64,000 bases of DNA from assembly GCF_964275005.1 (NCBI RefSeq), contig NC_092688.1, forward strand, positions 23,737,440 through 23,801,439. Direction: 5' to 3'. Of this stretch, positions 3,551 through 57,345 are shown piece by piece. The position numbers and the translations under genes were made by a program. The notes under the pieces are model-generated. The model saw only the letters and a program-made list of their open reading frames with translations. It searched no databases and was not told the DNA's origin. How positions within the stretch are numbered: the first letter of the stretch is position 1; every line of letters begins with the position of its first letter. The stretch comes from Diadema setosum (taxonomy: Eukaryota; Echinodermata; Echinoidea; Diadematoida; Diadematidae).

Positions 3551-3576
3551 ACAGATCCCACGATCCCACAGAGGGG

Positions 3577-10831: not shown

Positions 10832-10875
<44 letters not shown>

Positions 10876-11376: not shown

Positions 11377-11463
11377 CTTGACATTTGAGTCTAACAGCCT
11401 TATTCGATGAACAGTCAGTGAGTGTCAGTTGACAATCCATCAAACGTTGATACGTGCCACCAG
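11377..11463 (-). CDS. Paralogue A exon 4: second half of SRCR domain
   Basis: An 87-base exon between acceptor GCATAG and donor GTGAGC, phase 1 in and 1 out. It encodes the end of the SRCR fold with its last three cysteines (MDC, TDC, LKC). It differs from copy B by TLTD in place of TPAD. Confidence 0.85.
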
Positions 11464-14400: not shown

Positions 14401-15361
14401 ATAGTCATACTGATATCAAGGAATGCTTACCCTCGTAACACGTTGCGCTGATCGTAAATTCCACTGGGTAGGTATATATACCGTAAAGTTACCTTCACCC
14501 GATGGGCAAGTGACAAAATGGGAGAAAATGGGCGACGAAATCGTATAATTATGATTTCAAATGATTTGTTAGCTATCACATCCTGTACATCAAAGGCTGG
14601 GTAACTGATTGGCTTCACTTCAAATAATATTCTCCTCCCGCAAGGTGCTTGAAGAATCCAACTGTCCCTGCTGCGGACGCATATTTCGTCACACGACACC
14701 TCGGTCTTTAATGTTTCCCCCGGACAGTTTAAAGGTAGATCTGCAGTGGATAAAGAGGGGTAGATAAAGTCCATCGTTATTTAGTGATAACTTATGAATT
14801 GAAGAAGAACAAAATTAAATAAAAAGTCAGTATTACACGTGACGCTTAAGGTTACACGTTTGTCTATAAATCTTCTGATATCTCATCTATATTTCTTCGA
14901 TTTGAAATTATATGTCTGCAGGGAAAGATGCTTGGTTTTTCAAGATTCATTTGAAGGCATAAGCTTTTTTCCACTCGGAAAACAAAGGAAAAGTCATTTT
15001 GTAGTATGTGAGGCAATAGATTAGTAAGAAATGGCGATAGTCATAGTGCATGGAAATTGGTTTTAAACATCCGTACTATATTATATACGTGCTTAGAATC
15101 TATTCATATCTGTATTAAAGTATCGAGCTTTTGACAAAAAAAAAAATCGCCAACAAACAATAAAGGAAAGAGAAAGAGAGGGAGTTCCATTTCCAGGAAT
15201 TGGGGGAAAAGCCTTTGCACTCCACAATCCCTTCCACTCAAATACAAATGTCACGCTGCCCCGAACAATAGAGATAAGATATACGTACATGTGTCTCTTG
15301 ACAAAGCGAGCGATTGATAACAGCACAAACAAACGACAGAAATCCATGCTAGGCAGGCCAT
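11377..15361 (-). CDS. CUB-SRCR receptor paralogue A, 5' half only
   Basis: Four exons in the order 15361-15289, 14740-14431, 13228-12981 and 11463-11377 join in one open frame of 239 codons plus one base: signal peptide, CUB-like domain, and a complete group-A SRCR domain. Splice signals and phases (1, 2, 1, 1) are the same as in the complete paralogue at 42-57 kb, with residue changes scattered through all exons and no stop. Homology to the complete gene ends inside intron 4, and a LINE occupies the DNA further left. No CCP, stalk, transmembrane or tail exon is visible within the window. It may be a truncated duplicate, may use 3' exons beyond the left edge, or may make a short secreted form by reading into intron 4, which adds 18 codons before a stop. 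A role in recognition of extracellular ligands is inferred from the domains. Confidence 0.75.
12180..12228. repeat. A-run and (CAAA)n simple repeat
   Basis: Poly-A followed by an AAAC tetranucleotide run inside the intron. A shorter version is at the matching site in copy B (about 53236-53270). Confidence 0.85.
12410..12500 (-). mobile_element. Non-LTR element 3' tail, shared by A and B
   Basis: Read on the minus strand, the stretch ends with TGTTGGATGG...AAATAAAAATGAATTGAATTGAA, a LINE-type 3' end with a short tandem tail. The same tail is at 53420-53500, so this insertion predates the duplication. Confidence 0.5.
12637..12785. repeat. TTTGGTCTAATGCC-type minisatellite, copy A only
   Basis: Five or six diverged short units of the form (C/T)GTCTAATG(C/T)C follow one another between two GGTCTC words. 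Copy B goes straight from one GGTCTCTTCT to the flank at about 53629-53640, so the array is specific to A. Confidence 0.6.
12981..13228 (-). CDS. Paralogue A exon 3: first half of SRCR domain
   Basis: Starts with the SRCR signature (VTLVDGPSPLEGLVVFE) and carries three cysteines (YVC, LVC, LSC) and the ELGF block. The donor is GTAAGC. The exon start is set by phase: the CUB exon ends in phase 2, and the acceptor AAAAG at 13229-13230 gives phase 2, whereas the nearer CTACAG acceptor would give phase 1 and break the frame. Compared with B it has three extra codons in the variable middle (around ERYRAQALPRAVTG). Confidence 0.8.
13636..13662. repeat. (AG)n microsatellite
   Basis: A pure GA run in the intron; a shorter one is at the matching place in copy B near 55025. 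Confidence 0.9.
14431..14740 (-). CDS. Paralogue A exon 2: CUB-like domain
   Basis: A 310-base exon, one codon shorter than in copy B, with acceptor CACTGCAG and donor GTAAGC. It has the CUB-type strand pattern WILQAPCGRRILFEV followed by a beta-rich region. All four cysteines are in the first half. Several substitutions versus B are clustered in the SFEIIIIRFRR region. Confidence 0.75.
15289..15361 (-). CDS. Paralogue A exon 1: signal peptide
   Basis: ATG at 15361 opens a hydrophobic leader (MACLAWISVVCLCCYQSLAL) that ends at donor GTACGT in phase 1, matching the phase of the CUB exon. A second ATG, 13 bases downstream in another frame, gives a longer open frame but cannot be spliced in phase and meets a stop in copy B, so the first ATG is chosen. 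Confidence 0.75.
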
Positions 15362-15720
15362 CCTTCCATCTATTGCGATATTCAAAGTCATTATTTTTGT
15401 CAAAATATTAGCTTCCCGTCGAATCTGATGATTGGTCAGGTCTTTGTGCCGGTTATCCCTGCCTGTGGCTCTTCTGTAATACCATTTTTCAAAACTTAAA
15501 GTTTTACGCCCTGGCTTGCAAGGAGTGCGGAGTGATCGAACCTAATTCTATAATCAGAAACAAATACCACTGTGATTACGGTATAATGGGCAAAAATATA
15601 ACGAAGGGCCGAAGTGCGCTTAGTGAAACTGCGCGGGTACCCTCATTTGTGTGTCAGAGTGCTGAAGATACAGTGACCATTTTTTTTTTTAATGAATGTT
15701 ATGCATTAGTTCAATATTAA
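15362..15720 (-). promoter_or_regulatory. Conserved upstream region of paralogue A
   Basis: About 350 bases upstream of the first exon stay recognisably similar to 57053-57345 in copy B, including ACGCCCTGGC, AGGGCCGAAGTGCGC and TTTGTGTGTCA blocks. That makes it the likely promoter and 5' UTR area. No TATA box or start site can be fixed from the sequence alone. Confidence 0.4.
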
Positions 15721-31089: not shown

Positions 31090-32311
31090 GAATAATAAGC
31101 ATCATACATAGAGAAATGACATGCAGTGCTTGATATATCACTCAAATGAATTACTGACACTGTTGACGGGTATCTTCACCGACCATTGCTTCGTTCTCGT
31201 GAAAGGCTGGGAAAGTTAATGAAACACGGCAACGCATGCACGACGTCAGCACGTTGAACAAATTAATGTTCAACTCACATTTTGATTTACGTGAGCCTCT
31301 GCATACACAGTGAGAGGCCGAGTAGCTGCGCAGGCTCGTCAAGCGCACTTGGGAACCTTTTTTTTTTTTCGCGAAATCATCAGGCTGGGGATTTTCAACA
31401 ATGCCAAGTATATTTTTCTGTTCAGGGTTATAGTAGACTTCGCGTACGTCATAAAATTATGAAATCAAACTTTCGTAAAAAAACCCCAAACATACAACAT
31501 ACTAGATTTATCTTGTCATCTTCTTCAATAAAGCAGCAATAATATTCACAAGCATATTTCTATGCCTGTGTGATCCTCTCAGAAGGGATTCTGATATCTT
31601 TAAAGTACATGTATTACAACGAGAAAATTACATTCATCACCAGATTCACAGGCACTATACAGTTCATTCAACACCCAGTCTTCCACATCGCTTCTGAGCT
31701 AATTGTCATTCCTTCATAACACACAATTCGGCTCTGGGAGGGAACACGTTCAGGCACAAAAATTCGAATAGGGAACTATTTCGAATCTTGTGCTACATGC
31801 ACTGATCTAGATCAGACAGATAGTAGTTTGCCATTATTAAACAACTTGATTGCGTGATGATTATGATATATTCTCACTGTAACGCTACAAAGCAACAGAG
31901 ATATTATAAGCTCGGAAACGTACGTTATAAATAGATGAAGGGTAAGATTGGACGCTATATTACTTGTGCAGCACTGAGATCCCAGCATATCGACGTATGG
32001 TCCATTTCACAATATGTATTACTGTGCAGAACAATGCAGGCCCATGGCAGCAGAGTTAATAGAAAATGGTAATCATGAACGGGAACTCTGAGCGAGTACT
32101 ATCAAAACCGTATCAAGTATCGTGTGTTCCTTTGGATAGTATAGCTACCTTAGTATTTGTTATTTTACGGAAACAAATTTATCTTTAACGAAAACGCATT
32201 TCCTGTAGAATAGAATGTTCAAGAAATTCATGTTTAGAATGTCTTTCAGAGTATTTCTCTTACATTAACATTGTAGCTCATATGTAGGTACGTATATACT
32301 TACCTAATATA
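31090..32311. other. Intergenic, nothing recognised
   Basis: No domain-bearing frame, tRNA or clear inverted repeat was found on either strand. Confidence 0.5.
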
Positions 32312-33003
32312 TATGACCCTCCATCACAAAACCACCAAAAAGTCGCCAGACATGGATTTTCAGTTAAGAGCAGATTCTGAAAGAGCGGACTTTAAACTTT
32401 AAAGCGATGTATAACTCAATTGGAATGGACTCTCTTAACCTATCCTAACATTGGAAAGAAAGTATACACTCAGGAAAGTGTGAACTGAGAAAAGCGGCTT
32501 TGAAGTACAGAGTCTATTCAAGCGCTTAATCTTTACCAAGCCGTGCTATAGCTGTGCGACGAATGGAAAAAAGAACAGGATGTAAACCACCGTAGCAACA
32601 ACAAAGAAGGGATTATCAGATTAAGCTGAAATCAGAAGCATGCTTTATCACCACATTCTGTAGATGATTGATACCAACTTTCAAAGCAATAGCATCATCC
32701 TTCCTAAAGTTTTTAGAGTTGAAATTGAAGAGTGAGGACAGGGTTTTAAGAATGAAAAGGGGACTCTATACGACACAACTCATCACACTATTCTACCAAA
32801 AAGCATTCAAGAAAAAACTAGGAAAAACACAATTTCCTGTTCGTTTTATGATTCTAAACTTTAGTGTAATGTAGAAGAATACTCGATCTTTCAGAAAATA
32901 TGACAATCTGAAGTTTGGCTAGGTTGACCCGCTTCACCTATTTTCAGTCCTCACACAAAATCAATATGTGCGACTTTTTGTTCATTTGTGATGAACGGTC
33001 ACA
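32312..33003 (+). mobile_element. TGTGACC-family element, copy 2 (diverged)
   Basis: Same internal order as copy 1 (AAAAAGTCGCCAGACATGGA near the left; TCAGTCCTCAC and TGTGCGACTTT near the right). The terminal repeats have diverged: the left begins TATGACCCTCCATCAC and the right ends GATGAACGGTCACA. Confidence 0.8.
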
Positions 33004-33248
33004 TTTATATTGCAGTTTGTTTGCATATGACGCAAACACTAGTTCATTCAGTCCTAACACTTGACATAAATGTTCCAATCGTAATGTAGTGTAGACGTCG
33101 AATTCCTTTCAAAATGCATTTAGGTGCATTTCATACGAACTTGAAATTTGAAACACCGACCGACGACTCCAATGCAAATGCTGGCTGTTCTGTTTAGCGA
33201 GAGGAGTGTGTGTGTGTGTGTGTGGGGGGGGGGTTACCTGAAATATAA

Positions 33249-36087: not shown

Positions 36088-36188
36088 TGAATCTGACATT
36101 GATGACAGAGTAGATTTCGTTTTGTTGCCAATAGAGGGAGTTTATGTTTTATAGGTGGACAAATATTTTGGAGAAAACGATTTGAATA

Positions 36189-36882
36189 TGTGACCGTGCA
36201 CCTCAAAACGAACATAAAGTCGCACACACTGATTTTGCGTGAGGACTGAAAAATAAGTGAAATGGGTCAACCTAGCCGAACTTGACTTTTTCATATTTTC
36301 TGAAAGAGCGGGTCTTCTTTTACATTATGCTAAAATTTGGTATCATAAAAAGGGCAAAATAGTGTGGTTTTGTTTAGCAGTTTATCTCGAACATTTTTGG
36401 TAGAATAGTGTGATTAGGTGTGTCTTTAGAATCCCTTTTTCATTTCTAAAAAACCTTGTCCACACTCTTCACTTTCAACTCTAATAACTTTTGAAAGGAT
36501 AGTGCTACTGCTTTGAAGGTTGGCATTAATTATGGACAGAATGAGTTAATGAGGCATTCTTAATTTTAGTTTAATCTGATAATCCCTTCATTGTTGTTAC
36601 TCTGGTGGTTTACTTCCTCTTTTTTGTCCCATTCATCGCACAGCCAGCACGGTTTGGTAAAGATTAAGCGCTTGAATAGACACTGTACTTCAAAGCCTCT
36701 TTTCTCAGTTCACACTTTTCCTGAGTTTGTGCTTTCTTTCCAATATTTAGATAGGTTAGGAGAGTCCATTTGATTTGAGTTATACATCATTTTAAAGCTT
36801 AAAGTCTGTTCTTCCAGAATATGGTCTTAACTAAAAATTCATGTCTGGCGACCTTTTGTTTGTTTTGAGGTGCAGAGTCACA
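36189..36882 (-). mobile_element. TGTGACC-family element, copy 3
   Basis: Full length (694 bases), inverted relative to copy 1, flanked by TA on both sides, and very similar to copies 5 and 6 by eye. Confidence 0.9.
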
Positions 36883-36889
36883 TATGATT

Positions 36890-42209: not shown

Positions 42210-43524
42210 TCAGAGATCCATATTTGTATTTGTATTATTAACGTTCATATACAGTTCCTCTTGTGACGTTGCTTTATTGTCAATGTGACCGTCTTTTGTT
42301 TTGTCCACCTTAGCATACAGTTCTTCGCACGTTGCTGGTTTTGCTGCCGAATTTCCCTCAACTGTTTTGTTCACCGTTGCGTACAGTTCTTCGCACGTTG
42401 CTGGTTTTGCTGCCGAATTTGCCCCAACTGCTTTGTTCACCGTTGCGTACAGTTCTTCGCTAGTTGCTGGTTTTGCTGCCGAATTTGCCCCAACTGTTTT
42501 GTTCACCGTTGCATACAGTTCTTCGCACGTAGCTGGTTTCGCTGCCGATGATCCCTCAACTGTTTTGTTCACCGTTGCATACAATTTTTCACAAGGTTTG
42601 GTATTTGAAACATAACTCATGGGACTCTCGCAGTCATAGCAGTCGCTCAAGATGTCATCTATCTTTTTAGGGTGCTTGTCATGGGTGGAAGCTTTATCAG
42701 GATTCAGCAAGTAGTATTCTCCGGAGTCGAAAGCGTCAGTGAACTGTGGTTTGTTTAACGTTTCGATATTATTAGCTTCGTCAGGATGTAGTTGATAATA
42801 GAAGGCATCGTCACGATTGACGGTTGGTAGGGATCCCACGCAGGAATACGATTTGTCATCATTTCTGTCGGAGTGAACTTCACCATGAGAAGAAGGTCCA
42901 GAAGCTGAGAGACCTGTTGGGGGATTTTGCAGTCTCTTATCCAGGAGGGAACGATTGCAGTGATCGTACTCGCTCTCTCTATTGCTAGGAATGTTCTGGG
43001 CAGACTGTTTGACGACATTCAACGAATTATAGCACCTTTCATCAAACAAGCGGGCTTCATCAAAGGATCTAGAGCCTTTTTTCGTCAGCCAATCGTTTCC
43101 ACAGAGGTCTACATCCTGGTATTCACAGTCCTCATAGCAGCTCGCCGTTTGATCCAAAGACGTTTCCTGTACTCCACGGTTCTCATAAACACACGGGATA
43201 CTGACTGATGCGTGTACAGAAGAAGTGACGTTGCTCTCCAATGAGACTGCGCAAAGGGAGACTTGTACGTTTGATGGCTGGGACTGTCCCTTGTCTACCT
43301 CCACAGCGTCTTGGTAGATGTGATAAAGGTTCTCTTGATGAGTCGTGACGTCTCTGAAAATATTTCCATGGCGGTTCTGGGAAGGATGACCCTCTGCTCC
43401 AGCGTCAGTAATAGTAGTGTTCAATACAACATGATCCGCCGAGCTCAAATTTTGGTTTTGATTGTCTATGCGAAGCATCTCCAGTTGTCTGATTGACTGA
43501 TTTGAAATTTGTGAGGATCTGCGT
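42210..43524 (-). CDS. Gene B exon 9: cytoplasmic tail with tyrosine motifs
   Basis: A single 1,315-base exon after acceptor CCGTTACAG, ending in TAG/TAA-type stop after MDL. The tail is Ser/Asn/Asp-rich and apparently disordered. Tyrosine motifs include LYHIYQDAV, VYENRG, CEYQDVDL, CYNSL, EYDHC, YYQLHPDE, EYYLLNPD, SYVSN, four LYATV, one LYAKV and a final ELYMNV. YMNV is a YxN motif of the Grb2-SH2 type; YxxL/V motifs can recruit other SH2 proteins. LYATV has Glu at -2, so it is not a strict ITIM. No kinase, TIR or death domain is seen. Confidence 0.85.
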
Positions 43525-44515
43525 CTGTAACGGCAATTATAAGAAAGATACACTGTTAACTGTTTTGAAAAAAAAAAAGAAGAAGAAACGAAACAGAAGA
43601 CAAACCACCAATAACAACATTGCATTTTCAAGACGGAATGGAAACAGATATCACAAATATACAATTGTGGAATTTATCAACTTGTTTTGGTTTGTCCCAC
43701 GGAAAAATATATAATAAGGACATTGAAATAATGATTGAACATCAAAATCCATTTACACACTTTGAAAATATGGTATGTTTTACTTGAATACATACACATA
43801 CATTTTAATTTTTTACTCAAAGTTTGAAGCATTAATTACATTACTAAAAATGTAGAAAACGACAGTACAATGGCACAAGTAGGAAACAACTTCAACCACT
43901 TCCCGCAGCAATCTCCAAGCACCAACCTCCAACACTTTAACACACATATACACGCATATTATACACGTACACACAATACTGGGTTTATACGGAAACACTC
44001 ACCTTTTCTTGTGATGTCTGCACAATACCATGAAGAGAATTGCAACAAGTATGGGAACAACACACAGAAGAGCTGCTATTGCAAAGGTGTCAACATTGTT
44101 CTCAGGAACTTCAGAAGCTGAAATGGAATTCAGTACAATAAATCTTTGTCACTCTTTGCAAAAAAGTACATTACATTGGAGCGCACATTGCATTGACATA
44201 ATCCCGTAGAGTGCACATTATCGTATCATCAACAAAATAATCCTGAATTGACAGCCCTCAGATGCAAGCACTAAAGACATTATTTTACACATGGAAGGAT
44301 AAGGCACCACTTAATATGCAAATATAAGATATTACCATTACTTGATAATATCAAATTATGGATTTTGCTCTATTATGGAATTGCTCTATTTTAAATCAAT
44401 ATACATGTATTATTGCCTCTGATGTATTAATAGCAAATTGATCAGGTTGACGCAATGACACAGGTTCCTATGTCGAAAACTCTTTTTTTTTTTTCACATT
44501 TCAGGTCGCATGAAA

Positions 44516-44551
<36 letters not shown>

Positions 44552-47500
44552 TGTGTGTAAAGATAAATCTGCTTACAATAATGAACATGAGTTAATATCG
44601 TAAGCAGCAAAACATGGTTGCAATAACCCTTTAATATACAAGATGAAATTAAAATTCTGAGAAAAAAAAAAGAAATTAAACGATGTCAGTAAAATAATCT
44701 CTGCTTCATTATTGAATATATACGTAATGGATATGTGTATAGTTAGATGATATCAAATAATAAGGATATGCAACTCACTTGTAGTCGTTTCGCTTGTGTC
44801 TGGTATGACTACATTTTCAGTTGGATTGCCATCATCTGTTCGTGAAAAAAGCAAAAAGAGCAAGATGATTGGTACAGACAGCCGCAATGATGACATCATG
44901 GTATTTAGACCCACAATGACCTCGTCACCTCACATTGCATTTCATTTCATTTCATTTCATTTTAACATCAAAATAATACAAAATTATTGCAAAATAATAT
45001 CGGCGATTTGAAAAAAGATTTGTAAAAAAAAAATAAATGACATTAGGCAAATATAAATACAAACAAATACATAACAAAAACCCGAAAACACACAACGATG
45101 GAGTAAATACGAAATTTTCATACCTAGTGGCATTGATTTTGCGCATGTTGATAAAGAAAGATTACAAGCAGGATATCATGTCCTTGGAAAAGACTTTCAC
45201 CAGTTATTGTATGAAAGAGTTTATTTCCATAACATGGTCGAACTATTTGCAATAGCCGGAAACACATACATTTTTATGAATATTTCAAATTGAAATTGAA
45301 ATTATGAATTTATTTTTACTTTTTATTTAGGACTTATTGCTACAACATAATGTATCTGTCAAGTCTAGACGGCCCACCTATGCACTTGTGTACAGTTGAT
45401 ACAACTTGACTTTGAACATAATAAAATGTCAAAAGCAGGGAAGAAAGGCAGTCGCGTTGGAATTTTATTCCTTAAATGACAGTGCGATGTACTTCTTTTA
45501 GTTACCAAGCTATCTGCATGACTAACAGTGTACATAGCAATAATTCCATCAACAAAAGAAAGGAAATGGTAAGTTTGAAAGGTTTTTGTTCCTTGTCTTT
45601 TTAACCAAATCTTTTAACAGTGAATAGAGACTGAGCCTCAAACCGTAACCAAAAAATATAAAAAAGCAACACAAAATAAACGAAAAAAGTGATTACACAA
45701 ATCATAAAGCAAACAATGAGAGGGGTACAAAAAGAAAGGTTCACGACTGTAAAGTGGCTGACAAGTCATCTTACTTAGAAACGACGTGGCGGTGATCTCG
45801 GGCAATGTCGTTAGTTCATAAGCAAGCCCTCCCTCGCCTGTTTCATTGGAGGAAATCGGGGGCATTGGAGGAAATCAGGGGCATTGTGAGTAATGACTTA
45901 TATTTGTTTGTCCACAGAATCAGACTTTGTTTTAATATATTTGTAACAGACAAATGTTTCAAAGCTTACTGAAAAAAAAATATATTTAAAGATAAAATTC
46001 CATCATTAGTAGTTTTTACAGCTGTTGGATTCAATATCTCATGGAGCTGAGGTGATTTGCTAAATTAGTAGAGTAGCGTTAGGGTTAACGACACATTTTA
46101 GTCAGATTAAAAAAAAAATGACATAATGCCAAAAGATGCCGAAACACACATCACAAAACAATTACAATTACTCTAACAGTAGCTAGCTTGTAGATATTTT
46201 GAATGCTACTCACTGGAGATGTAGTCTGCATTCTGTGTAGGTGTTGGTTTGGTAGTTGTTCCACCTATGCATTAAACATAGACGTGCAAGACTTGATTCG
46301 GTCTCAAAGTAGTTTGGTAAATTATCCGGCACTCTTTGACAATACGAAACTCTGTCACGATCATTGAATTGAAGAATCGGTAGGTCTTTAAAAACTGCCC
46401 AAAGCGTATGTACATGTATCATAGAAATCTCTCAATCAAAATGACGTAAAATACATTGTACCAGCCCCTGTTGGTATATCTTGGCTTAATATCGGAAATA
46501 AGTTTTCTTTAATTTATCGATTGACAGAATAATGAATAGATCAAAGTGGTGTTTCTGTCTCGTATTTCGGCTAATACTTTTGAATTTCAGCAAAACTGAG
46601 ACATTTACCAGAATTCTATTCTATTTAGTAACACTTATTTGATCTGATTTTTGTTCGTTTTTATCGGTTCCCTCAGTTATAGTGTGGTGTAAAAAAAAAT
46701 TCTGCATTTCATAGTTCTCCTAATCTGATTTATCACGGGACCTGTGGCTCTACAAGCTTGTTTTTACGCAGGTCCTATCATATTTTTGGCATTATGACCT
46801 TAGTTTAACTAGCATGTATACCAAGACAAGCTTTTGTACATTCCGGTGAAATTTCATCTACTGACTGTTCTTTATAATTTTGGTAATTATACTTTATTGT
46901 GCTCTATGTGAGAAATAAAAAAAAAAATCTAAATAAAATGAAAATGAAAGGAAATCTTCAGTCACGATAACGGCTGATTTCCCGGAAATTTGAAGAAACC
47001 CCATAAATTTCCAGCTTTATGTCCAATTGAATGTACGAGCTATCATCCTCAGTTCCTTCTCCTCTTCCTATGCTCCGTGTTATACTGTCCAGTGTTATAT
47101 TCATTGTAGCCAATTGAATGTTTTAATTTTGACAAATACTGGTGTGTATCAATGGCAAACCTTCTGTTTTAGTTTCGGATTTCCAGCAGAAAGGGATTGA
47201 CATGTTCCAGGTAGGAAAGTAAGTCGACCGTCCAGGTAGCCATACACACTGCAGTGTCGCACTGCCACTGATGCTGTAGCCTTCATCACAGGTGAGAGTT
47301 ATCTTGGATCCAAAGTATGTCATATCAGAGTCCCAATGACCATTTTCCACATGACCGGGGTGAACACAAAACCCGACGGAAACTGTCAATTTAAGAAATG
47401 AAATTATGCAGTATCATCTGTCCATCAAGATACTCACAAATGGTTCACGCCCTGATTGTACGTGAGAACTCGAATTGGGTGAAATGGGTCAACCCAAACA

Positions 47501-49450
47501 AACACGAGTTTATCACATTTTTATCATTCGAAAGTTTTGGGTCATAAAACAGATGGAAAATTGTGTTTTTAGCATTTTCCTAGAACATTCGGCGTGGAAT
47601 AGTGTGATAAGGTATATCTTTATAGAGGCCCCTTTCAACTTCTTCAAAGCTCTTTACGCAGTCCTCACTTTTAACTCTAATAACTGTTCGAAGAGGACAC
47701 TGTTTGTTCGGAATTTGGTACTAGAATTGGACAGAGTGTGTTGAGCATTCAAAAAGAGCATTCTTTCAGTGCAACCTGATAATGGTTTCATTGGTGTTGC
47801 TATTCAGTTTTCATTGCGTCCTGTCTTTTTCCCACCCAACGCAGAGAGCAAGGATTGCTTAAGATTAAGCGCTTTGACAGGCCATTAACCTTTGAGCTTC
47901 TTTTCTGAGTACACACTTTTCCAAAATGTGTACTTTCTCTCGTTTATTTAGAGGGTAGGCTTCGGTTCTGCTTGGTGACTGTTCAGCGAGTTTTTTAGCC
48001 AATTTTGGTCGGACACCGACAGGTGACCGACTGATGACCGACCAGGCACAACTGTTTTTTATTTTTTTTTATGACATCGGTTTTAACGCGGAACTAAAAC
48101 TTCACCTGCGACTGACCAGTCTTCACTCGCTGCCCAAAATACTCTTGGTGTACCCCTAGCGGCGACTACCCAGACACCGACCTAATCACGTGAGCGCCGT
48201 CGAACGATTTAGAGAACAAAAATAATAAAGATAAAACTTACAAAAGCACAGAAGAAAACCAAGGGACTAGATGAAGAAGAGGGAAAAATCACAATCTGAA
48301 AGAGGCAGGGGGAGGGATAGAGGCAAGATAACCCTACCAAGTGCTTAGCAGCTTCTATATATGTGACCCTGCACCTCAAAACAAACAAAAAGTCGCCAGA
48401 CATGAATTTTTAGTTAAGACCATATCCTGAAAGAGCAGACTTTAAGCTTTAAAATGATGTATAACTCAAATCAAATGGACTCTCCTAACCTATCTAAATA
48501 TTGGAAAGAAAACACAAACTCAGAAAAAGTGTGAACAGAGAAAAGAGGCTCTGAAGTACAGTGTCTGTTCAAGCGCTTAATCTAATACCAAACCGTGCTG
48601 GCTGTGCGATGAATGGGACAAAAAACAGGAAGTAAACCTCCAGGGTAACGACAATCAAGGTATTATCAGATTAAACTGAAATTATAAATGCCTCATTAAC
48701 ACATTCTGTCCATAATTAGTGCCAACTTTCAAAGCAGTAGCATTATCCTTTCAAAAGTTATTAGAGTTGAAAGTGAAGAGTGTGGACAAGGTTTTTCAGA
48801 AATGAAAAAGGGATTCTAAAGACACACCTAATCACACTATTCTACCAAAAACATTCGAGATAAACTGCTAGAAATACACACTTTCCTGCCCGTTTTATGA
48901 TACCAAATTTTAACATAATGTAAATGAAGACCCGCTCTTTCAGAAAATATTGAAAAGTCAAGTTCGGCTAGGTTGACCTATTTCACTTATTTTCAGTCCT
49001 CACGCAAAATCAGTGTGTGCGACTTTATGTTCGTTTTGAGGTGCACTGTCACATATAGCATTCTCAGCAGGTACATACCCAACGCAGCTGAGGACTAGCA
49101 ATATTGGAGACATGGAAGACAGGGACAACCACTGTAGGACGAACGGATTTAAAGCTAGAAATTCGGGTCATTATGTAACCGACGGGAAATCGACGGAGCA
49201 TTGCTCGGGCATCACTGGGATGTTACAGCCTGCTCGACTGATAGGCAGTGCCAAAATTTCAGTGGCGACAGAGCAGACTACAAATCGGTTGGTCGCCGCT
49301 CTGAGTTGTGACCATAGCCTTGTACTACAAAAGTCCAATTTGTATCAAGTAATACATCATTCCAAAGCATAGAGTCTGCTCTTTTAGAATCTCCACTTAG
49401 GACCAAAAATCCATGCCTGGCGACTTTTTGCTGGTTTTGTGGTGCAGGGT

Positions 49451-49481
<31 letters not shown>

Positions 49482-49491
49482 ACACGCACAC

Positions 49492-49539
<48 letters not shown>

Positions 49540-52500
49540 CTACAACGTCTGCTAACTAGCCCTCTTTTTGAGTCACGACTACAGATAATTATACATTTGT
49601 GTGTACGCATGCGTTTGAGTGGATGGTGTGTGTGTATGTTATGTGTTTCCACATCCTTTTATTTTTACTCGTAGCTTGCATGTCGTCTGTAAAGGGGAAC
49701 GAACAGTCTCTTTATCTAGAGCACAACTTTGTGTGCATACCCTTGCAGACCAATAAATGCCTAACTACTCATTCGTTATGTTTGTAAGCATCATGACTAC
49801 ATGTACATTTAATAATGATTCAAACTAAAAATGTTCTTTGTATGTGTTCGCATTCTCATATACTACTTTGATTTTGAAAGAAATATAATATTCCCGACGG
49901 ATGACGGTTCAGTAGCGACATTCTTCACTTTGTCTTCCTCTACAAATCAAATTTGTTAAGATCGCAACCGCTGATCTGTAAATTAACAAACATGTCGGGA
50001 AAGGGAACCAGTGGGACTCCATCTTGTCAGCTACCTACTGGTTTCCGTGCAGCGACACTACCACCAGGCTGTCCTTGGTTGCCGGCAGTGACACGATGAA
50101 CATGGATCAAATTTTAATACCCAAGCTCCGAAATTCCGACATTGTCATGTTAAGTAGTCCAAAGCGGAAAAGATATATTAAATGAAAGAAAATATAATTT
50201 AATGGGGTGAAAGTTTTTTTTCTTTTTTTAAGATCGCAACCGCTGAATTAATAAAATTAGATTAATGCAAATTAACAAACATGTCGAAAAAAATAAAGGA
50301 ACCAGTGGGACTCGAATCTATTTTCATTTTGTTTGCTGCAAAACACATCCATCCGCAACCAAATCGAAGCAGGCCAAAAATTTGGCAAATAAAGTGCGGA
50401 GAAGATACGTCACCCAATAAGTAACCCTATTTTTATTCATTGACTTTCATGCCCATGCATATCTCGAAACAATGCAGAACGATTTACGTTTATCCAACCG
50501 ATTCATCCCTGCGCCTATATTACTGCGGATCCACACTGACCGTGGCTGTAAAGTTTCAACAGCATTCACACAAACATTTAGCAACCTAACGTTTGGAAAA
50601 TGAATCCTGCACTGTCCCTTTGTCATGCAATGTACACAATAATTCCTGACACTTACTCAATATTTGTACCATTCAAGAAAGAAAAGAGAAAGTATATCGT
50701 ATTTCTTTCGACTTTTGCAAGGGAGAAACTGTATTCCTGTATATTCTTAAGGCAATAAAGAAACTTACTTTGTTAACAATTAATATTAACGTATATATGT
50801 GACCGTGCACCTCAAAACGAACATAAAGTCGCATACACTGATTTTGCGTGAGGACTGAAAATAAGTGAAATGGGTCAACCTAGCCGAACTTGACTTTTTC
50901 ATATTTTCTGAAAGAGCGGGTCTTCTTTCACATTATGCTAAATAATTTGGTATCATAAAACGGGCAGGAAAGTGTGTTTTTTTTAGCAGTTTATCTTGAA
51001 CATTTTTGGTAGAATAGTGTGATTAGGTGTGTCTTTAGAATCCCTTTTTCATTTCTGAAAAACCTTGTCCACACTCTTCACTTTCAACTCTAATAACTTT
51101 TGAAAGGATAGTGCTACTGCTTTGAAAGTTGGCATTAACTATGGACAGGAATAATAATGTTAATGAGGCATGCTTAATTTCAGTTTAATCTGATTATCCC
51201 TTCATTGTTGTTTCTCTGGTGGTTTACTTCCTGTTTTTGACCCATTCATCGCACAGCCAGCACGGTTTGGTAAAGATTAAGCGCTTGAATAGACGCTGTA
51301 CTTCAGAGCCTCTTTTCTCAGTTCACACTTTTCCTGGGTTTGTGCTTTCTTTCAAATATTTAGATAGGTTAGGAGAGTCCATTTGATTTGAGTTATACAT
51401 CATTTTAAAGCTTAAAGTCTGCTCTTTCAGAATATGGTCTTAACCAAAAATTCATGTCTGGCGACTCTTGTTTGTTTCGAGGTGCAGGGTCACATATATG
51501 TATGGCACCAACAATGTATATAACTTATGTGTGTGTGTATCTGCATGAGCACTGATATAATGCAGAAACCAATAAAATCAAATTAAATGAAATCAAACTT
51601 TTGTTATGCTCTTTTAATTGTCAAATTTGTCATCTATTTACTATTGAATGCTTACAATTCACATTTGCCTTTCATACTCACTGTTGTATGACTCATGGAT
51701 CAGTTGGTCAGATTCCTGGTCTACCTGTCTGGGACATGTCCATTTTTTAGAGTTCCTTTCTTCAGGCTCTATCTTGCCAAACGGTTCTGATTGAAAACAG
51801 TTTGTATGAATCTATTACATACAACAGCAGCGCCATATTCCCGGGTGTGCCTCTACAGACGAACATACAGTTTTGTTAAAATAAACGTCAGATCCGAAGA
51901 AAGACATAGTCTTAGATGTCTGTTCATCGTCTTACTAGCATCCATGAAATCCAGGTTTTTCATAGGTGTGAAACAAAATGACGGTCACCTGGAAAAGCTA
52001 TATCCAATATACTCTCTTCAAAAATTATCAGCCAATCCTTGTTACGTAATTGTTACAAACCTAATTCTGATAAGACTACCGATCACATTTTGTCTATGCA
52101 CTTACACTGCCAATAACTTTAATAGTGCAAAATACAAGTTAATATGATTTTGTTCTTTTATACTTTACTTTACTCATTCCTTATTTACAAATGATAAGGA
52201 CGTGACAGCAAACACCCTTTATCAATAATGTATCCAAGGTATTCTATAGATAAGTATATTGCCGCAAAAGCGTATAGTTGCATGTAGGTAAAACCATGCC
52301 ATTTAAAACAGAATGTTTGTGCAAAATGAGAACACTTCCTGCTCTTGACTCCGTAAAACAATGTCATTTGATCATTATGACAAATAAAACATCAACACAA
52401 ATTTATTTGTAATTGCATCAGTAGGCTCACCTTGACATTTGAGTCTAACAGCCTTATTCGAGGAACAGTCAGCTGGTGTCAGTTGACAATCCATCAAACG

Positions 52501-55500
52501 TTGATACGTGCCACCAGCTATGCATTGATGTAATGGAACACAGTTACAAAACTTCAAAAACATTAACGCACTAATTCAAAGCAAAAGTAGAAATTAATTT
52601 GAATGCAATGTCTTGAAAGCAAATAGAATAGACATTGAACGTTGAAGGATGAGGTTGAAGTAAAAAAATTCGCCAAATTCTGTACTTTGCTTAAAATTCA
52701 CTTACCGTCTGACAGTCTAAAAAAGCGTTGCCTAGTTTTCGAAATCTACATGATTTCAGAATACTTCATATATCGTTTAATTTTTTTTTTATATATACGC
52801 AATACTGCAGTCTCCATGAAGACATAACAGTAATGATAATAATGACAATAATTTATTGTTTTATAGTTTACTATTCAAAACAATAAAATGTAAAATAAAA
52901 ATTCAGCAGCTCGATGGCTCATCCGTTTGATTTATCTTACATCACAGACCCAGCACAGACCTCATAGAATTCAGAATAAATGTACGTTTGCATTGCATAT
53001 ATTTATGTAAGATAATAAAATACGTCACAAATCATAATAAAATGCACATCAAACTTAAGTTTCAATAATGGAATAGGTAGATAATGCAAAAAGGAAATGA
53101 TATTTATGAGATGATAGAACGCAATGAAGAATAGCGGGCATGACAGTTGAGAGCAAAGGAAGGTGGATAGGTCGAAAGCACAAAAACATGGAAATGGGCA
53201 GGAACAGGTAATCAGCGCAATTATGTCCATATACAAAACAAAAAAAGAAACATTAAAAAAAATAAGAGCGGCAGAGAACTTCAAGTAGAACAAGAAAGTA
53301 GACGAGCGGCATTGTTAACATGAATTGCGGGATAAAAAAAAATGACGACTGATGGTAGAATTATACAAAATTCAAATGTAAAAACAGCCAGAAAAAAAGA
53401 AATAAGGGAACACAATGTATCCTTCAATTCAATTCAATTCATTTTCATTTTTCATCCAACAAAGAGTAAAACAGAATCATGAGAAAACCATATGAACAAC
53501 AAGGAAATAAAAAAAAATATGTAAGATTTTCACATAAGAATATCATTATCAGCTGAGACATGGGGAATAAAAGATTAACTTTCCAAAATTAAGGGTCAAG
53601 TAACCCAGGGGACCAGCTGCTAACCTTGGTCTCTTCTAAGATATGTTTGCCATCTCTCTGTACAGTTCTCAATTCTTTTTAAATTGTTTTACCATCTACA
53701 ATGTATATACCTATTTCACTTCACATTGCGTTTTATCATTTTCTGCAAAATTTCTTCTTCTGTTTTTTTTTTTTTTTTTTTTTTTTGCTTTTACCCTCTA
53801 AAAAATCTCTGCAATAATTCTATTTTCAGCTTACGTGGATTTCCACAAGATAACCGTCCAGTTCTGCGCCGCGATACTGTTCGTGGCAATAAACTCCCAG
53901 ACGCGCCTGGGAAACCGAGCTCTCCGCAGACCAGTTTGGCAGCTTCGGCGTTAAATCCTTCATAGCAAACATATGTGTCTGGTTCGAAGACGACCAATCC
54001 TTCAAGGGGGGAGGGTCCGTCAACCAGTGTCACATTGGGTGTTTCTATAGACCGCATGATAACGATATGAACACTTTTATAATTTTCAAGTTTAAGTTCA
54101 AGTTGATTTATTCCATTTCCAACAAACAAATAATCAGAAATACCATGAAACACACTTGCATTGTATACACAGATGTCAGGAAATACCACAACGCAAAGAA
54201 CAGAATAACATTACAAAAAAGATACAGGTAAATTATCAACAGAGATACAAATAACTGTTACGTCACTGTGGTAAAGGCAGAAACAAAATTTTGATAATGA
54301 AACTCTGACATCTAGACTAATGAATTAAATTGAAAACCGAGTAAGACTTCGGAAAGGTCGCAGTTTCCAAATAACAAGGTTTACGGTTAGGAGCGTTTTA
54401 TTTTCAACCCCACGTATGTACTCCTTCTACATGAAATAAAGGTAAAATACTTTGCAATTTTACTTCTTAAAACCTTAAAGGGTGTGTACAGTTCTCGTCG
54501 AGGTGAGGATTTAGCTTTTAATGTTTTGCGAGATATTCAGAAACCGCTCTCTGAGATGGCAAAGAGCATGCAATTCTAAGGGGTATCAAAAATTTATTTG
54601 ATGAAAATCGGTTTTGAAATGGCTGAGATATCCAAAAACAAGGTGAAACAAAGAGATCCTAATAAAGTTGTGGCCTGTCGCCTTTTATTATTATCACTTT
54701 TTTTGATATCTCGGCCATTTGAAAACCAATTTTCATCAAATAAACGTTGAATCCTTCTTAAAATTACATGCTCTTTCATATTTCATAAGAGGTACCTCAT
54801 TATCTCACTTAAGAATGTTCAAAACATGAATTCCCACCTCAACCAGTACTGTACAGTCCCTTTAATGACAGGCAATGAAGACTGCAATAACATGTTACAG
54901 TGTAGTGGATGATATGCTCGTGTTTGACATTATACGGCGTACACAATACTGCACTTTCATTCTGTATTGCTTTCTCTCCATAATTTCGTAATGGAAGGTA
55001 TTTTCTAATTCTTGAATTTTGTTCGAGAGAGAGAGAGAAAGCAAAAATAAAGAACGCAGTACCAGTAACTCATTAGAGAGAAAAGTTGCAGTTCGTCACA
55101 ACCCGTGACCTCTTTTTGACCTATTCGGTTGCTGAGTGTAAGACTACTGATTTCGAGGGAAATCATCAAAACCTCACGGTAACAAGTTATTGCAATCTAC
55201 TGGTCTATGGATATAGCAGAATAAAGTAGCCTGCGATTTATTTGGTACAGACGTACACTATACCTGATAAAAAGAAAATAAAATGTTATTTTAGCTAAAT
55301 AAAACTGTGCGTTTTACTTTTACTTTGCAACCGATGTGTACATGCTGCCTTATCTCTAGTATAGCTTTAACTAAAACAGCTGATCATTATTATGTGATTA
55401 CCTTCATAAAATGTAATGTAACATGGTATGCTTTTTATGAGAATTAGATTTATTTTGAGGTCTAAAGCCAATTCATCGTACGCTCACTCCCTCTTTCCAC

Positions 55501-57052
55501 GAGGGTCCAAATCTTATTTGAATAGGTGGACGATATGTGAGAAAACATTCTATATATTTGTAGAGGTATGTTTTGACACAAGATGGACAATGGTCGGGGG
55601 AAAAAAAGAATCATTCCACTTTACCCTGTACGTTATTTGATTGCAATCACTTCGTTGAATTTTCTGTTTTTTAAACCAGAGCATGCCACTCGTTTTTCCT
55701 CGAGTGAACACATTATGCATTTATTTCATGCGTTATTAGAAAAAAATGAGCAACGTGAAAGACAACTAGGCCCATGTTCTTATTAGGATCAAACACTAAT
55801 ATTTAAGATCATACTGATATCAGTGAATGCTTACCCTCGTAACACTTTGCGCTGATCGTAAATTCCACTGGGTAGGTATATATGTCGTATAGTTAGCTTC
55901 ATCTGATGGGCAAGTGACAAAATGGGAGAAAATGGGCGGCGCCATCGCCGAATCGTGAGGGGAAATGATTCCTTAGCTATCACATCCAGCACATCAAAGT
56001 CTGGGTAACTGATTGGCTTCACTTCAAATAATATTCTCCTCCCGCAAGGTGCTTGAAGAATCAAACTTTGCTTTGTGCGGACGCATATTTCGTCATCACA
56101 CCACACCTTGGTCTCTAATGGTTCCCCCATACAGTTTAGAGGTAAATCTGCAATGGATGATAAGGGGTAGATTAAGTCCATCGTTATTTCAGTGATAAAT
56201 CATGAATTAAAGAAGAACAAAAAAAAAAATCAGCATTACACGTGATGCTTAATTTTACATGTTTATCAATAAATCTTCAGATATCTCATCAATATTTCTT
56301 CTTTTTGAAACTGTATGTGACCCGCTGCAACAAAAGGATCCTAAAGTCGCTGACGGGTGCGCCGAATAAATCGAGTTTGAAGTCAGATCACTAAAATCTG
56401 TCAAAACGTTCTGATTTCTGTTTTTTGAGGCCTGAAAATAGCATTTTTTCTGGGCCATGCTTGGCTCGCCCGTCAGCGACTTTAGGTTCCTTTTGTTGTA
56501 GCGGGTCACGTATGTCTGTAGGGCCAGCTGGGTTTTAAGGCATCATATGAGGGTAAAGGCTTTTCCACCTTGAAAAAAAAAAAAATCATTGTGTTGCACG
56601 AGAGCCAATAAATGAGTGAGAAATGGCAATAGTTATAGTGCATGGAAATCGGTTTTAAACATCCGTACTAGATTATTAAAGTGCAAAATGAATCTATCGA
56701 TACCTGTATTAAAGTTTTGAGCCTTTGACAAATATTATACACGACAAAACAACACGAAGCGTAACAAAAAAAAAAAAACAAGCTAGAAAAATCAAATTGC
56801 CAACAAACAACACACAAAAAGAGAAAAAAAGAAAGAACAATATGAAATATGACTTTCCGAATGTTCCCTTTCCAGGGACTGGGCGAAAAAGTCTTTGCAC
56901 TCCCAAATCCCTTCCCCTCAATTACAAATGTCACGCTGTCCCGGCACACAATACTTATCATATTATACTATATACGTACATAAATCTCTTGACAAAGTGA
57001 ATGACGGATAACAGCACAAGAAAACTACACAAATCCATGCTAAGTAGGCCAT
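42210..57052 (-). CDS. Receptor gene B: signal-CUB-SRCR-CCP-TM-tyrosine tail
   Basis: Nine exons (57052-56980, 56147-55835, 54073-53835, 52517-52431, 47382-47161, 46264-46214, 44835-44779, 44117-44003, 43524-42210) give 2,472 bases, 823 codons plus stop, with GT/AG at every junction and matching phases (1,2,1,1,1,1,1,2). Domains by residue: signal 1 to about 22, CUB-like about 25-128, group-A SRCR about 140-236, CCP about 240-303, Thr/Pro stalk about 305-355, transmembrane about 358-380, basic stop-transfer RHHKKR, then a tail of about 440 residues with more than 15 tyrosines. SRCR and CCP domains bind ligands at the cell surface. The tail looks built for tyrosine phosphorylation and SH2-protein docking, so an immune or adhesion signalling receptor is inferred. 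I recognise no named orthologue. The first four exons are duplicated at 11-15 kb. Confidence 0.85.
42290..42605 (-). repeat. Five tandem 66-base coding repeats (LYATV units)
   Basis: The word ACAGTTCTTCGCA (plus strand), or a variant, recurs at about 42317, 42383, 42449, 42515 and 42581, an exact 66-base period. Each unit encodes 22 residues of the form EELYATVNKTVGANSAAKPA. The outer units are more diverged than the central ones. Confidence 0.92.
44003..44117 (-). CDS. Gene B exon 8: transmembrane segment
   Basis: A 115-base exon, acceptor CATTTCAG, donor GTGAGT, phase 1 to 2. The hydrophobic run TFAIAALLCVVPILVAILFM is followed by VLCRHHKK, a standard stop-transfer signal for a type I protein. 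Confidence 0.9.
44519..44560. repeat. (TG)n microsatellite
   Basis: A dinucleotide run in intron 7. Confidence 0.95.
44779..44835 (-). CDS. Gene B exon 7: stalk
   Basis: A 57-base exon, acceptor CGAACAG, donor GTGAGT, phase 1-1, reading DGNPTENVVIPDTSETTT. Acidic and threonine-rich juxtamembrane stalk. Like exon 6 it is a multiple of three in symmetrical phase, so either could be skipped without a frameshift. Confidence 0.75.
44940..44963. repeat. (TTTCA)n pentanucleotide repeat
   Basis: Four or five TTTCA units, possibly the tandem 3' tail of a minus-strand LINE fragment in intron 6. Confidence 0.6.
45000..46200. other. Intron 6 of gene B, nothing else recognised
   Basis: No additional exon with domain content or clear transposon ends was seen. 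Confidence 0.5.
46214..46264 (-). CDS. Gene B exon 6: Thr/Pro-rich stalk
   Basis: A 51-base exon, acceptor TGCATAG, donor GTGAGT, phase 1-1, reading GTTTKPTPTQNADYIS. The threonines are likely O-glycosylation sites in a membrane stalk. The exon is too short for statistical support alone, but the phase and position fit. Confidence 0.75.
47161..47382 (-). CDS. Gene B exon 5: CCP/sushi domain
   Basis: 222 bases, phase 1 in and out, acceptor TTGACAG, donor GTTTGC. The CCP pattern is complete: FCVHPGHVENG, then FGSKITLTCDEGYSISG, then TLQC, a tryptophan-containing end, and IPFC (four cysteines). CCP modules bind proteins or carbohydrates in complement and adhesion proteins. No copy of this exon exists in paralogue A within the window. 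Confidence 0.9.
47460..47965 (-). mobile_element. TGTGACC-family element, old truncated copy
   Basis: The internal order of the family is recognisable inverted (GTGAAATGGGTCAACC, GGAATAGTGTGATAAGG, AACTCTAATAACT, ATTAAGCGCTT, GAGTACACACTTTTCC), but the ends are lost and divergence is higher than in the other copies. It lies just outside exon 5, in intron 4. Confidence 0.7.
48362..49053 (+). mobile_element. TGTGACC-family element, copy 5
   Basis: A well-preserved full-length copy (692 bases), flanked by TA on both sides. It sits in intron 4, about 100 bases outside the duplicated segment. Confidence 0.9.
49326..49453 (-). mobile_element. TGTGACC-family end fragment, partner of 8742-8866
   Basis: The same truncated end, in the same position of the duplicated segment, followed here by a (CA)n tract. 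Confidence 0.7.
49450..49538. repeat. (CA)n and (TA)n microsatellites
   Basis: Dinucleotide runs replacing the A-specific insertions at this position. Confidence 0.9.
49888..50330. repeat. Copy B-specific insertion with internal direct repeat
   Basis: Two copies of a segment containing AAGATCGCAACCGCTGA, AAATTAACAAACATGTCG and GGAACCAGTGGGACTC (about 49959-50018 and 50231-50317). Copy A runs uninterrupted across this site near 10155. GTGGGACTCGAATC resembles an inverted B box, so SINE origin is possible. Confidence 0.5.
50798..51494 (-). mobile_element. TGTGACC-family element, copy 6 (B-specific)
   Basis: A full-length copy (697 bases), flanked by TA. The matching place in copy A (near 10540-10575) has no such element, so this copy moved after the duplication. 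Confidence 0.9.
52431..52517 (-). CDS. Gene B exon 4: second half of SRCR domain
   Basis: 87 bases, acceptor GCATAG, donor GTGAGC. It adds the cysteines MDC, ADC and LKC, giving six in total with exon 3. Six cysteines over two exons is the established group-A SRCR layout; group B has eight, usually in one exon. About 25 bases past the donor an AATAAA occurs in B but not in A. Confidence 0.88.
53420..53500 (-). mobile_element. Non-LTR 3' tail, partner of 12410-12500
   Basis: The same AATTGAATTGAATTGAA-type tail and adjoining sequence as in copy A. Confidence 0.5.
53835..54073 (-). CDS. Gene B exon 3: first half of SRCR domain
   Basis: Encodes a linker and the SRCR start (VTLVDGPSPLEGLVVFE, cysteines YVC, LVC, LSC, and the GELGF block). 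Donor is GTAAGC, phase 1 out. Phase requires the acceptor AAAAG at 54074-54075. A LINE tail inserted 12 bases further upstream has removed the polypyrimidine tract that paralogue A keeps there. The nearer CTATAG acceptor would shorten the exon by 29 bases and break the frame with exon 2. Confidence 0.8.
54087..54286 (-). mobile_element. LINE 3' tail inserted next to exon 3 of gene B
   Basis: A 200-base insertion between duplicated AATTTT words (54081-54086 and 54287-54292). Read on the minus strand it ends GGAATAAATCAACTTGAACT, with a TTGAACTTAAACTTG tail. Copy A shows the uninterrupted site at 13230-13250. It lies 13 bases from the splice acceptor of exon 3. Confidence 0.75.
54479..54861. 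mobile_element. TTAA-flanked MITE (B-specific)
   Basis: 383 bases with inverted ends (AGGGTGTGTACAGT and its relative AGGGACTGTACAGT) and a long inner palindrome (GATGAAAATCGGTTTT and TTTTCATC side). TTAA is duplicated at both ends (54475-54478 and 54862-54865), while copy A has one TTAA at the empty site (13455-13458). TTAA targets are typical of piggyBac and Kolobok transposases. Confidence 0.85.
55835..56147 (-). CDS. Gene B exon 2: CUB-like domain
   Basis: 313 bases, acceptor CATTGCAG, donor GTAAGC, phase 1 to 2. The block LILQAPCGRRILFEV matches the WxIxAPxGxxIxLxF strand of CUB domains, and later blocks (SFPLTIRR, MKLTIRHIYL) fit its beta strands. Cysteines are at LNC, WC, EIC and APC, all in the first half; the second canonical CUB disulfide pair is absent. 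It could instead be a distant beta-sandwich fold. Confidence 0.7.
56316..56510. mobile_element. TA-flanked 195-base MITE (B-specific)
   Basis: Ends TGTGACCCGCTGCAACAAAA and its complement, with a shared inner CTAAAGTCGCTGACGGG block. TA is duplicated (56314-56315, 56511-56512). Copy A has the empty site ATTATATGTCTG near 14910. Its first nine bases equal those of the 6.67-kb element and nearly those of the 690-base family. Confidence 0.85.
56980..57052 (-). CDS. Gene B exon 1: signal peptide
   Basis: ATG at 57052 starts a hydrophobic leader (MAYLAWICVVFLCCYPSFTL) and the exon ends at donor GTACGT in phase 1. The alternative ATG 13 bases downstream runs into a stop, so this start is supported by both copies. 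Export to the secretory pathway is expected. Confidence 0.8.
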
Positions 57053-57345
57053 CCTTCTGTCTGTTGCGATACTCAAAGCCATTGTTTTGTCAAAGTAAGA
57101 ACTGCAAGCTTCCCGTCTAATCTGATGATTGTTCCCGTCTCTGCTATCCCTGCTGGTGACACTTCCGTATAATACTTTTTTTTTCCCAATATTCCAGAAT
57201 TACGCCCTGGCCTGCGACGAGTGCGGGTTGATCAGATGTAGTTCTATAACAAGAAACAATAACCACATTATAATCGATACAAAGGGCCGAAGTGCGCGTG
57301 TTAAAACTGCGCAGGTAACGTCGTTTGTGTGTCAAAGTATAGTTT
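57053..57345 (-). promoter_or_regulatory. Conserved upstream region of gene B
   Basis: Counterpart of 15362-15720 with shared ACGCCCTGGC, AGGGCCGAAGTGCGC and TTTGTGTGTCA blocks. It is the likely promoter and 5' UTR; no start site is defined. Confidence 0.4.

Follow-up and report, generated by a model that had tools for sequence, protein, structure and literature searches.

In most copies examined, the N-terminal domain of a receptor family of Diadema setosum is written in two constrained reading frames, and the change from one frame to the other takes place at a fixed ATATATA motif. One member of the family lies on the minus strand of the 64,000-nucleotide stretch of DNA analysed here (the window; C4:23737440-23801439 of the 912.7 Mb D. 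setosum assembly used for genome searches). A conserved frame jump in the middle of an exon suggests either that the ribosome is shifted on purpose or that the message is repaired in a new way. A programmed -2 or +1 frameshift at ATATATA appears to be the best explanation, to which we assign a probability of about one half.

The exons of the original prediction were rebuilt from the letters of the window, and relatives were placed on them by tblastn. The nine exons (57052-56980, 56147-55835, 54073-53835, 52517-52431, 47382-47161, 46264-46214, 44835-44779, 44117-44003, and 43524-42210, minus strand) join with GT/AG at all junctions and in matching phases, giving 2472 nt and 824 codons. The exons themselves are real, but the predicted model is wrong at its N-terminus, and its exon count and the acceptor of its third exon are not supported. 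Two in-phase exons, 51786-51682 and 45837-45775, had been left out, and both are included in the NCBI prediction P0001, an uncharacterized protein of 641 aa that equals the window translation from MDCQ to the stop codon minus one 22-aa repeat unit. Relatives start the first SRCR exon at 54044 (TATAG/AA). The predicted acceptor at 54073 is located 29 nt upstream of it, in the context AAAAG/T and without a pyrimidine tract, and is the one required by phase when a single frame is used throughout exon 2. Different upstream sequences are joined at 54044 in the relatives having the first SRCR exon (P0003, P0008, P0010, and P0011), and in the 11/30 fetched loci that have this exon within reach the frame enters at the AG equivalent to 54044, as judged by eye.

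In the revised model, exon 1 (56980-57082, minus strand as all exons that follow) carries the start codon at 57082, or in frame at 57052, encodes the signal peptide and ends in phase 1 at the donor T/GTACGT. It is open in the second copy present in the window (15391-15289), and an exon-1-like exon was found upstream of exon 2 in 21/30 fetched loci (E <= 2e-6), including both window copies; one of the 21 loci, L014, has a stop inside it. Exon 2 (55835-56147) encodes a cysteine-containing N-terminal domain. Its 5' part is coding in the frame of exon 1 and its last ~ 45 nt in the frame one base later, with the frame-change site ATATATA (context CGACATATATACCTACCC) at 55877-55883. The group-A SRCR domain is split between exon 3 (53835-54044, phase 1 to 1, defined by tblastn of relatives and Pfam) and exon 4 (52431-52517), in which P0001 begins with MDCQ at 52494. 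Exon 5 (51682-51786), the first of the two exons missed originally, encodes a 35-residue linker (EPFGKIEPEERN...); it is matched by P0001-P0008 and also occurs in the second copy. The CCP/sushi domain is encoded by exon 6 (47161-47382), and a Thr-rich stalk by exon 7 (46214-46264), the formerly missed exon 8 (45775-45837), matched by P0001-P0005, and exon 9 (44779-44835), which is not in P0002 or P0004. The transmembrane helix (hydropathy 3.17 at positions 201-219 of P0001) and a KKRRR stop-transfer sequence are located in exon 10 (44003-44117). Exon 11 (42210-43524), within an open frame of 487 codons, encodes a cytoplasmic tail of ~ 437 residues with tyrosine motifs and ends with the stop codon.

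Two additional candidate exons were rejected. A micro-exon at 55263 (GTATAGTGTAC...), which would bring exon 2 and the SRCR exon into phase and continues the sequence YSVRLYQ, was attractive at first and was ruled out because frame 2 is unconstrained past the site and no good donor was seen. A 26-nt exon at 52731 receives no support from the donor of the second copy.

The product is therefore composed of a signal peptide, a cysteine-containing N-terminal domain of ~ 100 residues, a group-A SRCR domain, a linker, a CCP domain, a Thr-rich stalk, a transmembrane segment, and a tail of ~ 440 residues. The echinoderm origin and the single-pass receptor with SRCR, CCP, transmembrane segment and long tyrosine-rich tail are supported. 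The CCP exon alone (47380-47162) scores 31.0 bits with Pfam PF00084 (cut-off 20.7), contains the four cysteines, and has complement regulators as its PDB matches. The SRCR domain of the window gene stays under the Pfam cut-off of 26.1 (21.2 bits, E 3.7e-4), as does that of P0021 (20.8), while relatives P0010 (34.7), P0032 (30.6), and P0033 (32.9) are above it. Six cysteines in the order VC..LVC..LSC..MDC..ADC..LKC, typical of SRCR group A, support the proposed class. The six-cysteine criterion for this group is given in the accessible text of PMC10855680.

The CUB identity suggested for the N-terminal domain received no support. No Pfam CUB match was obtained in either window copy or in 21 family members (0/21), and a PDB search with the N-terminal family profile returned 0 chains at E <= 10; an AlphaFold model of the domain, built from 2 sequences, is meaningless (pLDDT 32). 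Furthermore, the last ~ 17 residues of the supposed CUB domain (LPSGIYDQRKVLRG), together with VHIVIMRSIE, are in a frame not used by relatives; here P0011, P0016, P0022, P0027, P0031, P0032, P0034, and P0035 follow the next frame instead (YDIYTYPVEFTISAKCYE). As a separate observation, P0010, P0014-P0022 and some others contain, between the SRCR and CCP domains, an additional cysteine-rich stretch (GFLGCYEGNQQ...CVC...) absent from the window gene. It is reminiscent of WSC domains; when it was scanned in P0010, P0015, P0021, and P0033, the only match was a weak one in P0033 (DUF7091, E 0.17).

In the tail, 15/19 tyrosine columns are at least 90% conserved vs. 199/389 other columns (P0001-P0010; Fisher P 0.019, a value that ignores the relatedness of copies). 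A 66-bp tandem repeat at 42297-42590 (minus strand) comprises 4.5 copies, each unit contributing one LYATV-type motif. This in-frame repeat is one unit shorter in P0001, and LYATV motifs may thus be polymorphic in number. The motif EELYATV is of the YxxV form with E at position -2, and the tail repeat is therefore not a classical ITIM, the consensus of which is (S/I/V/L)xYxx(I/V/L). Inspection by eye disclosed no fit to it among the 19 tail tyrosines of P0001. The last tail motif, LYMNV, fits a YxN (Grb2-type) site. The protein is a putative surface recognition receptor that would recruit SH2 proteins via phosphorylated tail tyrosines, and from architecture and family expansion an immune-signalling role can reasonably be inferred.

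According to our searches, the window gene appears to belong to a very large family that has no name and is found solely in Diadema. The whole product has relatives with E values down to 0. Among the matches listed, all proteins of the profile search A1 (40/40) are from D. setosum or D. antillarum, and 11 of 16 proteins in the N-terminal search are from Diadema; the other five (P0050-P0054), from molluscs and a sponge, are of the SRCR or neurotrypsin-like type. No convincing relatives outside Diadema were seen among the ~ 8000 best word-sharing candidates scored, a set in which distant relatives may be missed. The statement that the product corresponds to no named receptor is supported. The gene is not undescribed in the strict sense, being already an NCBI-predicted uncharacterized protein of this very large family. 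Among the titles and beginnings of abstracts listed in literature searches, none described this Diadema family or frameshifting within it.

Genome searches of the D. setosum assembly disclosed at least 145 stretches matching the tail and at least 150 copies of exon 2 (150 scored of 200 candidates, and again of 235). The family clusters mainly on C4, C17, C24, C16, C7, and C6. Conventional single-exon SRCR arrays also exist in this genome, e.g. at C12:10728775-10793170, where tens of very similar copies are ~ 740 bp apart.

The second member in the window is represented by its 5' half at 10649-15391 on the minus strand (exon 1 15391-15289, exon 2 14740-14431, SRCR exons 13199-12981 and 11463-11377, and linker 10753-10649). 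It has the same frame change, at 14479-14473, and its sequence of exons 4 and 5 equals NCBI P0004. Its CCP domain or tail was not found by tblastn between window positions 1 and 10649, and its 3' half is probably located beyond the start of the window. The window also contains remains of a non-LTR retroelement at 3487-7339 (plus strand), with endonuclease, reverse transcriptase, and zf-RVT matches over several open frames. A repeat of ~ 700 bp, with copies 82-94% identical, is present in both orientations at 51499-50794, 49057-48356, 1549-2248, 32307-33009, and 36186-36885, and two opposed copies of it are positioned inside the intron between 51682 and 47382.

The frame change, the most unusual feature of the gene and one missed in the original prediction, was followed through the copies of exon 2. 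Among 69 copies that were read, 62 have the same +1 offset, with frame 2 open to the site and frame 3 open after it; L079, which belongs to the 62, carries a 3'-terminal insertion. Lengths of out-of-frame copies range from 289 to 304 nt and vary only in steps of three. The explanation by a 5-nt deletion in the window gene was dropped, being superseded by the finding that many copies match frame 2 over their length and that most of the copies examined show conservation of frame 2 as well as frame 3. The query of the 69-copy sample had the window's own frame, which favours copies with the same offset. The search was therefore repeated with the 5' part of another copy, a query neutral to the 3' frame. 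In this search, the matched 5' part has no stop in 148 of 150 scored copies, of at least 150 that exist. A rank sample was taken from it (every 4th of ranks 1-77, giving 20 copies, and 6 of 18 from ranks 81-149). The 26 copies, several of which are shared with the 69-copy sample, comprise 20 with the same offset, 3 in-frame copies, 2 third-frame copies, and 1 that is interrupted. The two third-frame copies, L151 and L157, gained or lost bases at the TA run and are left unexplained by a frameshift.

Copies that read through exon 2 in one frame, which serve as a natural control, were revealed in a search with a piece of P0032. By adding 20 fetched in-frame copies together with L109 and L110, an alignment of 93 copies was obtained, comprising 64 out of frame, 28 in frame (27 of them open), and 1 in the third frame, in proportions set by choice. 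Neither 69 nor 93 represents a population frequency, because of the query bias in the first and the deliberate picking of in-frame copies in the second. Since in-frame copies exist, not all members require the shift. Linkers of the in-frame copies L020, L024, L073, L082, L107, L109, L110, and L115-L134 are very variable in length and sequence. Close sisters can differ in frame state, as illustrated by L073 (in frame) and L103 (out of frame) with a divergence of 6%. A tree built from the 5' part implies at least 11 changes of frame state (24 on average after shuffling), and its midpoint root, the placement of which is arbitrary, is out of frame.

Constraint was evaluated in 61 clean out-of-frame copies (the 69 without six in-frame copies, L016, and L079). 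In the 5' part, stops are absent from frame 2 (0/61) and its dN/dS is 0.62, while the other two frames have a dN/dS of 0.94 each and stops in 61/61 copies. The 3' part has no stops in frame 3 (0/61; dN/dS 0.34), stops in 24/61 copies in frame 2 (dN/dS 1.06) and in 54/61 in frame 1 (dN/dS 2.36). At the site, third-position variability switches phase (permutation P 5.5e-4 and 9.5e-4, with relatedness of copies ignored as in the Fisher test above). In the 93-copy set, dN/dS of the 5' part is 0.49 in out-of-frame vs. 0.43 in in-frame copies, and that of the 3' part 0.31 vs. 0.51. The constraint signal stems from the family and not from the window pair: between the two window copies alone, exon 2 has a dN/dS of 1.2, i.e. 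no constraint, and its openness has a probability of 0.17 by chance.

These results bear on the possibility that the exon is relaxed or dead. Out-of-frame copies would then make no N-terminal domain, the receptor would start elsewhere or the gene would be silent, and similarity would be maintained by recent duplication and gene conversion. Omission of the N-terminal domain from most NCBI models, the dN/dS of about 1 between the window copies, and the frequent switching of frame state are all in line with such a history. Against it, the 5' part is open in nearly all copies scored, both parts are stop-free in 61/61, and dN/dS is similarly low in out-of-frame and in-frame copies, with a mean dS of about 0.6. 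In addition, the linker of 25 nt is kept in 56/63 out-of-frame copies, and, with a signal peptide in just 4/49 NCBI models, SRCR and CCP domains would be left without export. On balance we find a dead exon rather unlikely.

The TA run is near-invariant, synonymous bases included. Along ATATATA, the consensus base is present in 60, 60, 60, 61, 61, 61, and 56 of 61 out-of-frame copies, and the site columns 257, 260, and 261 show one state in 60, 61, and 61 copies. For comparison, only 2 of the 85 frame-2 third-position columns before the site show one state in at least 60/61 copies, and one of these is a gap column. ATATATA is located in the linker of 58/63 out-of-frame vs. 4/28 in-frame copies, and the linker, so uniform in the former, is 21-39 nt long in the latter. 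The exact motif is absent from 5/63 out-of-frame copies (four read TATATATG and one differs more) and also from L137, L141, and L142 of the rank sample. L143, L149, L150, and L085 have TAA as their next zero-frame codon past the site. A TAA directly at the site in a few Diadema copies recalls antizyme sites; in antizyme, a zero-frame stop is positioned at the frameshift site. Downstream RNA structure is not evident: in the two window copies, the 144 nt that follow the site give z of -0.85 and -0.92 and the first 70 nt z of -2.04 and -1.32, and no consensus fold was obtained over 61 copies.

According to the proposed mechanism, translating ribosomes would change frame at ATATATA. A slip by -2 would fit best, because tRNA-Ile on AUA can re-pair perfectly with the AUA two bases upstream. 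It would need exactly ATATA, bases which are each kept in 60-61 of 61 copies and permit the AUA to AUA step at -2; slippage in vivo is putative. The -2 product would be as long as that of the in-frame copy L073 (297 nt vs. 295). A shift by +1 is also possible and is not told apart from -2 at the sequence level; the trans-frame peptide at the site is predicted to be HIYTYPVEFTISAK for -2 and HYTYPVEFTISAK for +1. Starting from ATG 57052, translation without a shift would give a short secreted protein of 136 aa, and with a -2 shift a receptor of 870 aa. Since the unshifted product would be secreted and the shifted one would be the receptor, the site may set the ratio of soluble to membrane product. 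Tentatively, scores of paralogous nuclear receptor genes may keep a programmed frameshift (-2 or +1) in the extracellular domain, each round of translation yielding either the short secreted product or the complete signalling receptor. Such a switch would be common to an immune-type repertoire and repeatedly gained and lost.

The same short TA repeat could lend itself to a correction at the RNA level, by +2 or -1 base at the run (polymerase slippage or editing), in which one extra TA unit would restore the frame; unrecognised splicing could likewise join the two frames. One internal GT/AG pair is conserved, at offsets 38 (57/61) and 241 (55/61), and its 205 nt have the right length modulo 3. 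Its use would excise sequence that is constrained as coding, and the window gene has a frame-3 TAA straight after the AG. An alternative acceptor might be CCCAG just after the site (offset 270-271), found in 37/61 copies including the window gene, where it could allow an in-phase junction of exon 1 with frame 3; against this, the AG is missing from 24/61 copies and conserved frame-3 codons would be discarded. More generally, 26/61 copies, among them L009 and L011 (both window copies), lack any AG in the interval from the last frame-3 stop to the site, and hence have no upstream 3' splice site into frame 3. RNA correction or splicing is, in our estimate, a rather unlikely explanation overall, and either would be as new as a frameshift.

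Two other explanations have very little in their favour. The originally predicted reading of exon 2 in one frame to its end, spliced to 54073, is open and matches in phase, equally in the second copy, but its frame past the site meets stops in 24/61 copies and shows no constraint, relatives begin the SRCR exon at the equivalent of 54044, and its AAAAG acceptor has no pyrimidine tract. A somatic or allelic change of the TA run, with DNA slippage adding a TA unit and switching receptors on as in a contingency locus, would agree with the different frame states of L073 and L103, but ~ four TA units are a short run for high slippage and 24/28 in-frame copies are without ATATATA, making it highly improbable as well.

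A programmed frameshift would also have consequences for annotation. Only four of the 49 NCBI models (P0015, P0016, P0021, and P0022) begin with an exon-1-like signal peptide, as recognized by hydropathy and reading; P0025 begins with another hydrophobic stretch, and six models begin at or near the transmembrane segment. At least 17/49 models begin downstream of the site, 6 at MDC(Q/P) and 11 at a Met encoded by the final codons of exon 2. Of these 11, ten start at the Met in a KCYDE-like sequence and P0044 at MFKLKVQCF in the same place. Such starts are placed downstream of the site because in tblastn exon 2 matches relatives in one frame in its 5' part and in the next frame in the last ~ 45 nt, and they give the impression of a frame that could not be traced further upstream. 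If the frameshift is true, automatic annotation cut the N-terminus off many members in D. setosum and D. antillarum, and a site kept in scores of paralogues offers a natural panel of variants for dissecting it.

Several features of the receptor have counterparts in known systems. Like the Diadema receptor, CD5, CD6, CD163, and WC1 combine an SRCR ectodomain with cytoplasmic tyrosine docking sites; they differ in having group-B SRCR domains and are not known to contain a CCP. The putative aggregation receptor SRCR/SCR of Geodia cydonium also unites SRCR and CCP/SCR on one membrane receptor, as here, but has many SRCR and SCR repeats and a short tail and is not known to have a comparable N-terminal domain. 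In Strongylocentrotus purpuratus, the accessible text on the SRCR superfamily likewise describes a massive tandem expansion of SRCR genes with group-A domains and with Sushi, CUB, and WSC among the partner domains of the repertoire (PMC10855680). The Diadema family differs from it in combining a single SRCR and a single CCP with an N-terminal domain that fits no known class and with a long tyrosine tail. The main text of that article makes no mention of “Diadema”, “tyrosine” or “frameshift” (PMC10855680). For D. setosum itself, an RNA run (SRR24694066) is listed in the accessible text of the genome paper (PMC11066563).

Concerning the frame change, shifting by -2 is described in tailed phages such as Mu, in arteriviruses, and in Trichomonas vaginalis virus 1, and no nuclear animal gene is given for it in the accessible text of the same source (PMC5009743). 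In antizyme +1 and phage or viral -2 frameshifting, both frames are likewise conserved around a fixed site, which is shift-prone there and putatively so in Diadema. Unlike these cases, in Diadema the shift would fall within a structural domain belonging to a large multigene family of receptors. Similarly, the single-base inserts known from animal mitochondrial genes, where translation proceeds by +1 frameshifting, constitute a conserved frame break in constrained coding sequence (PMC5009743). They are found in few genes, whereas the Diadema case is nuclear and present in scores of paralogues.
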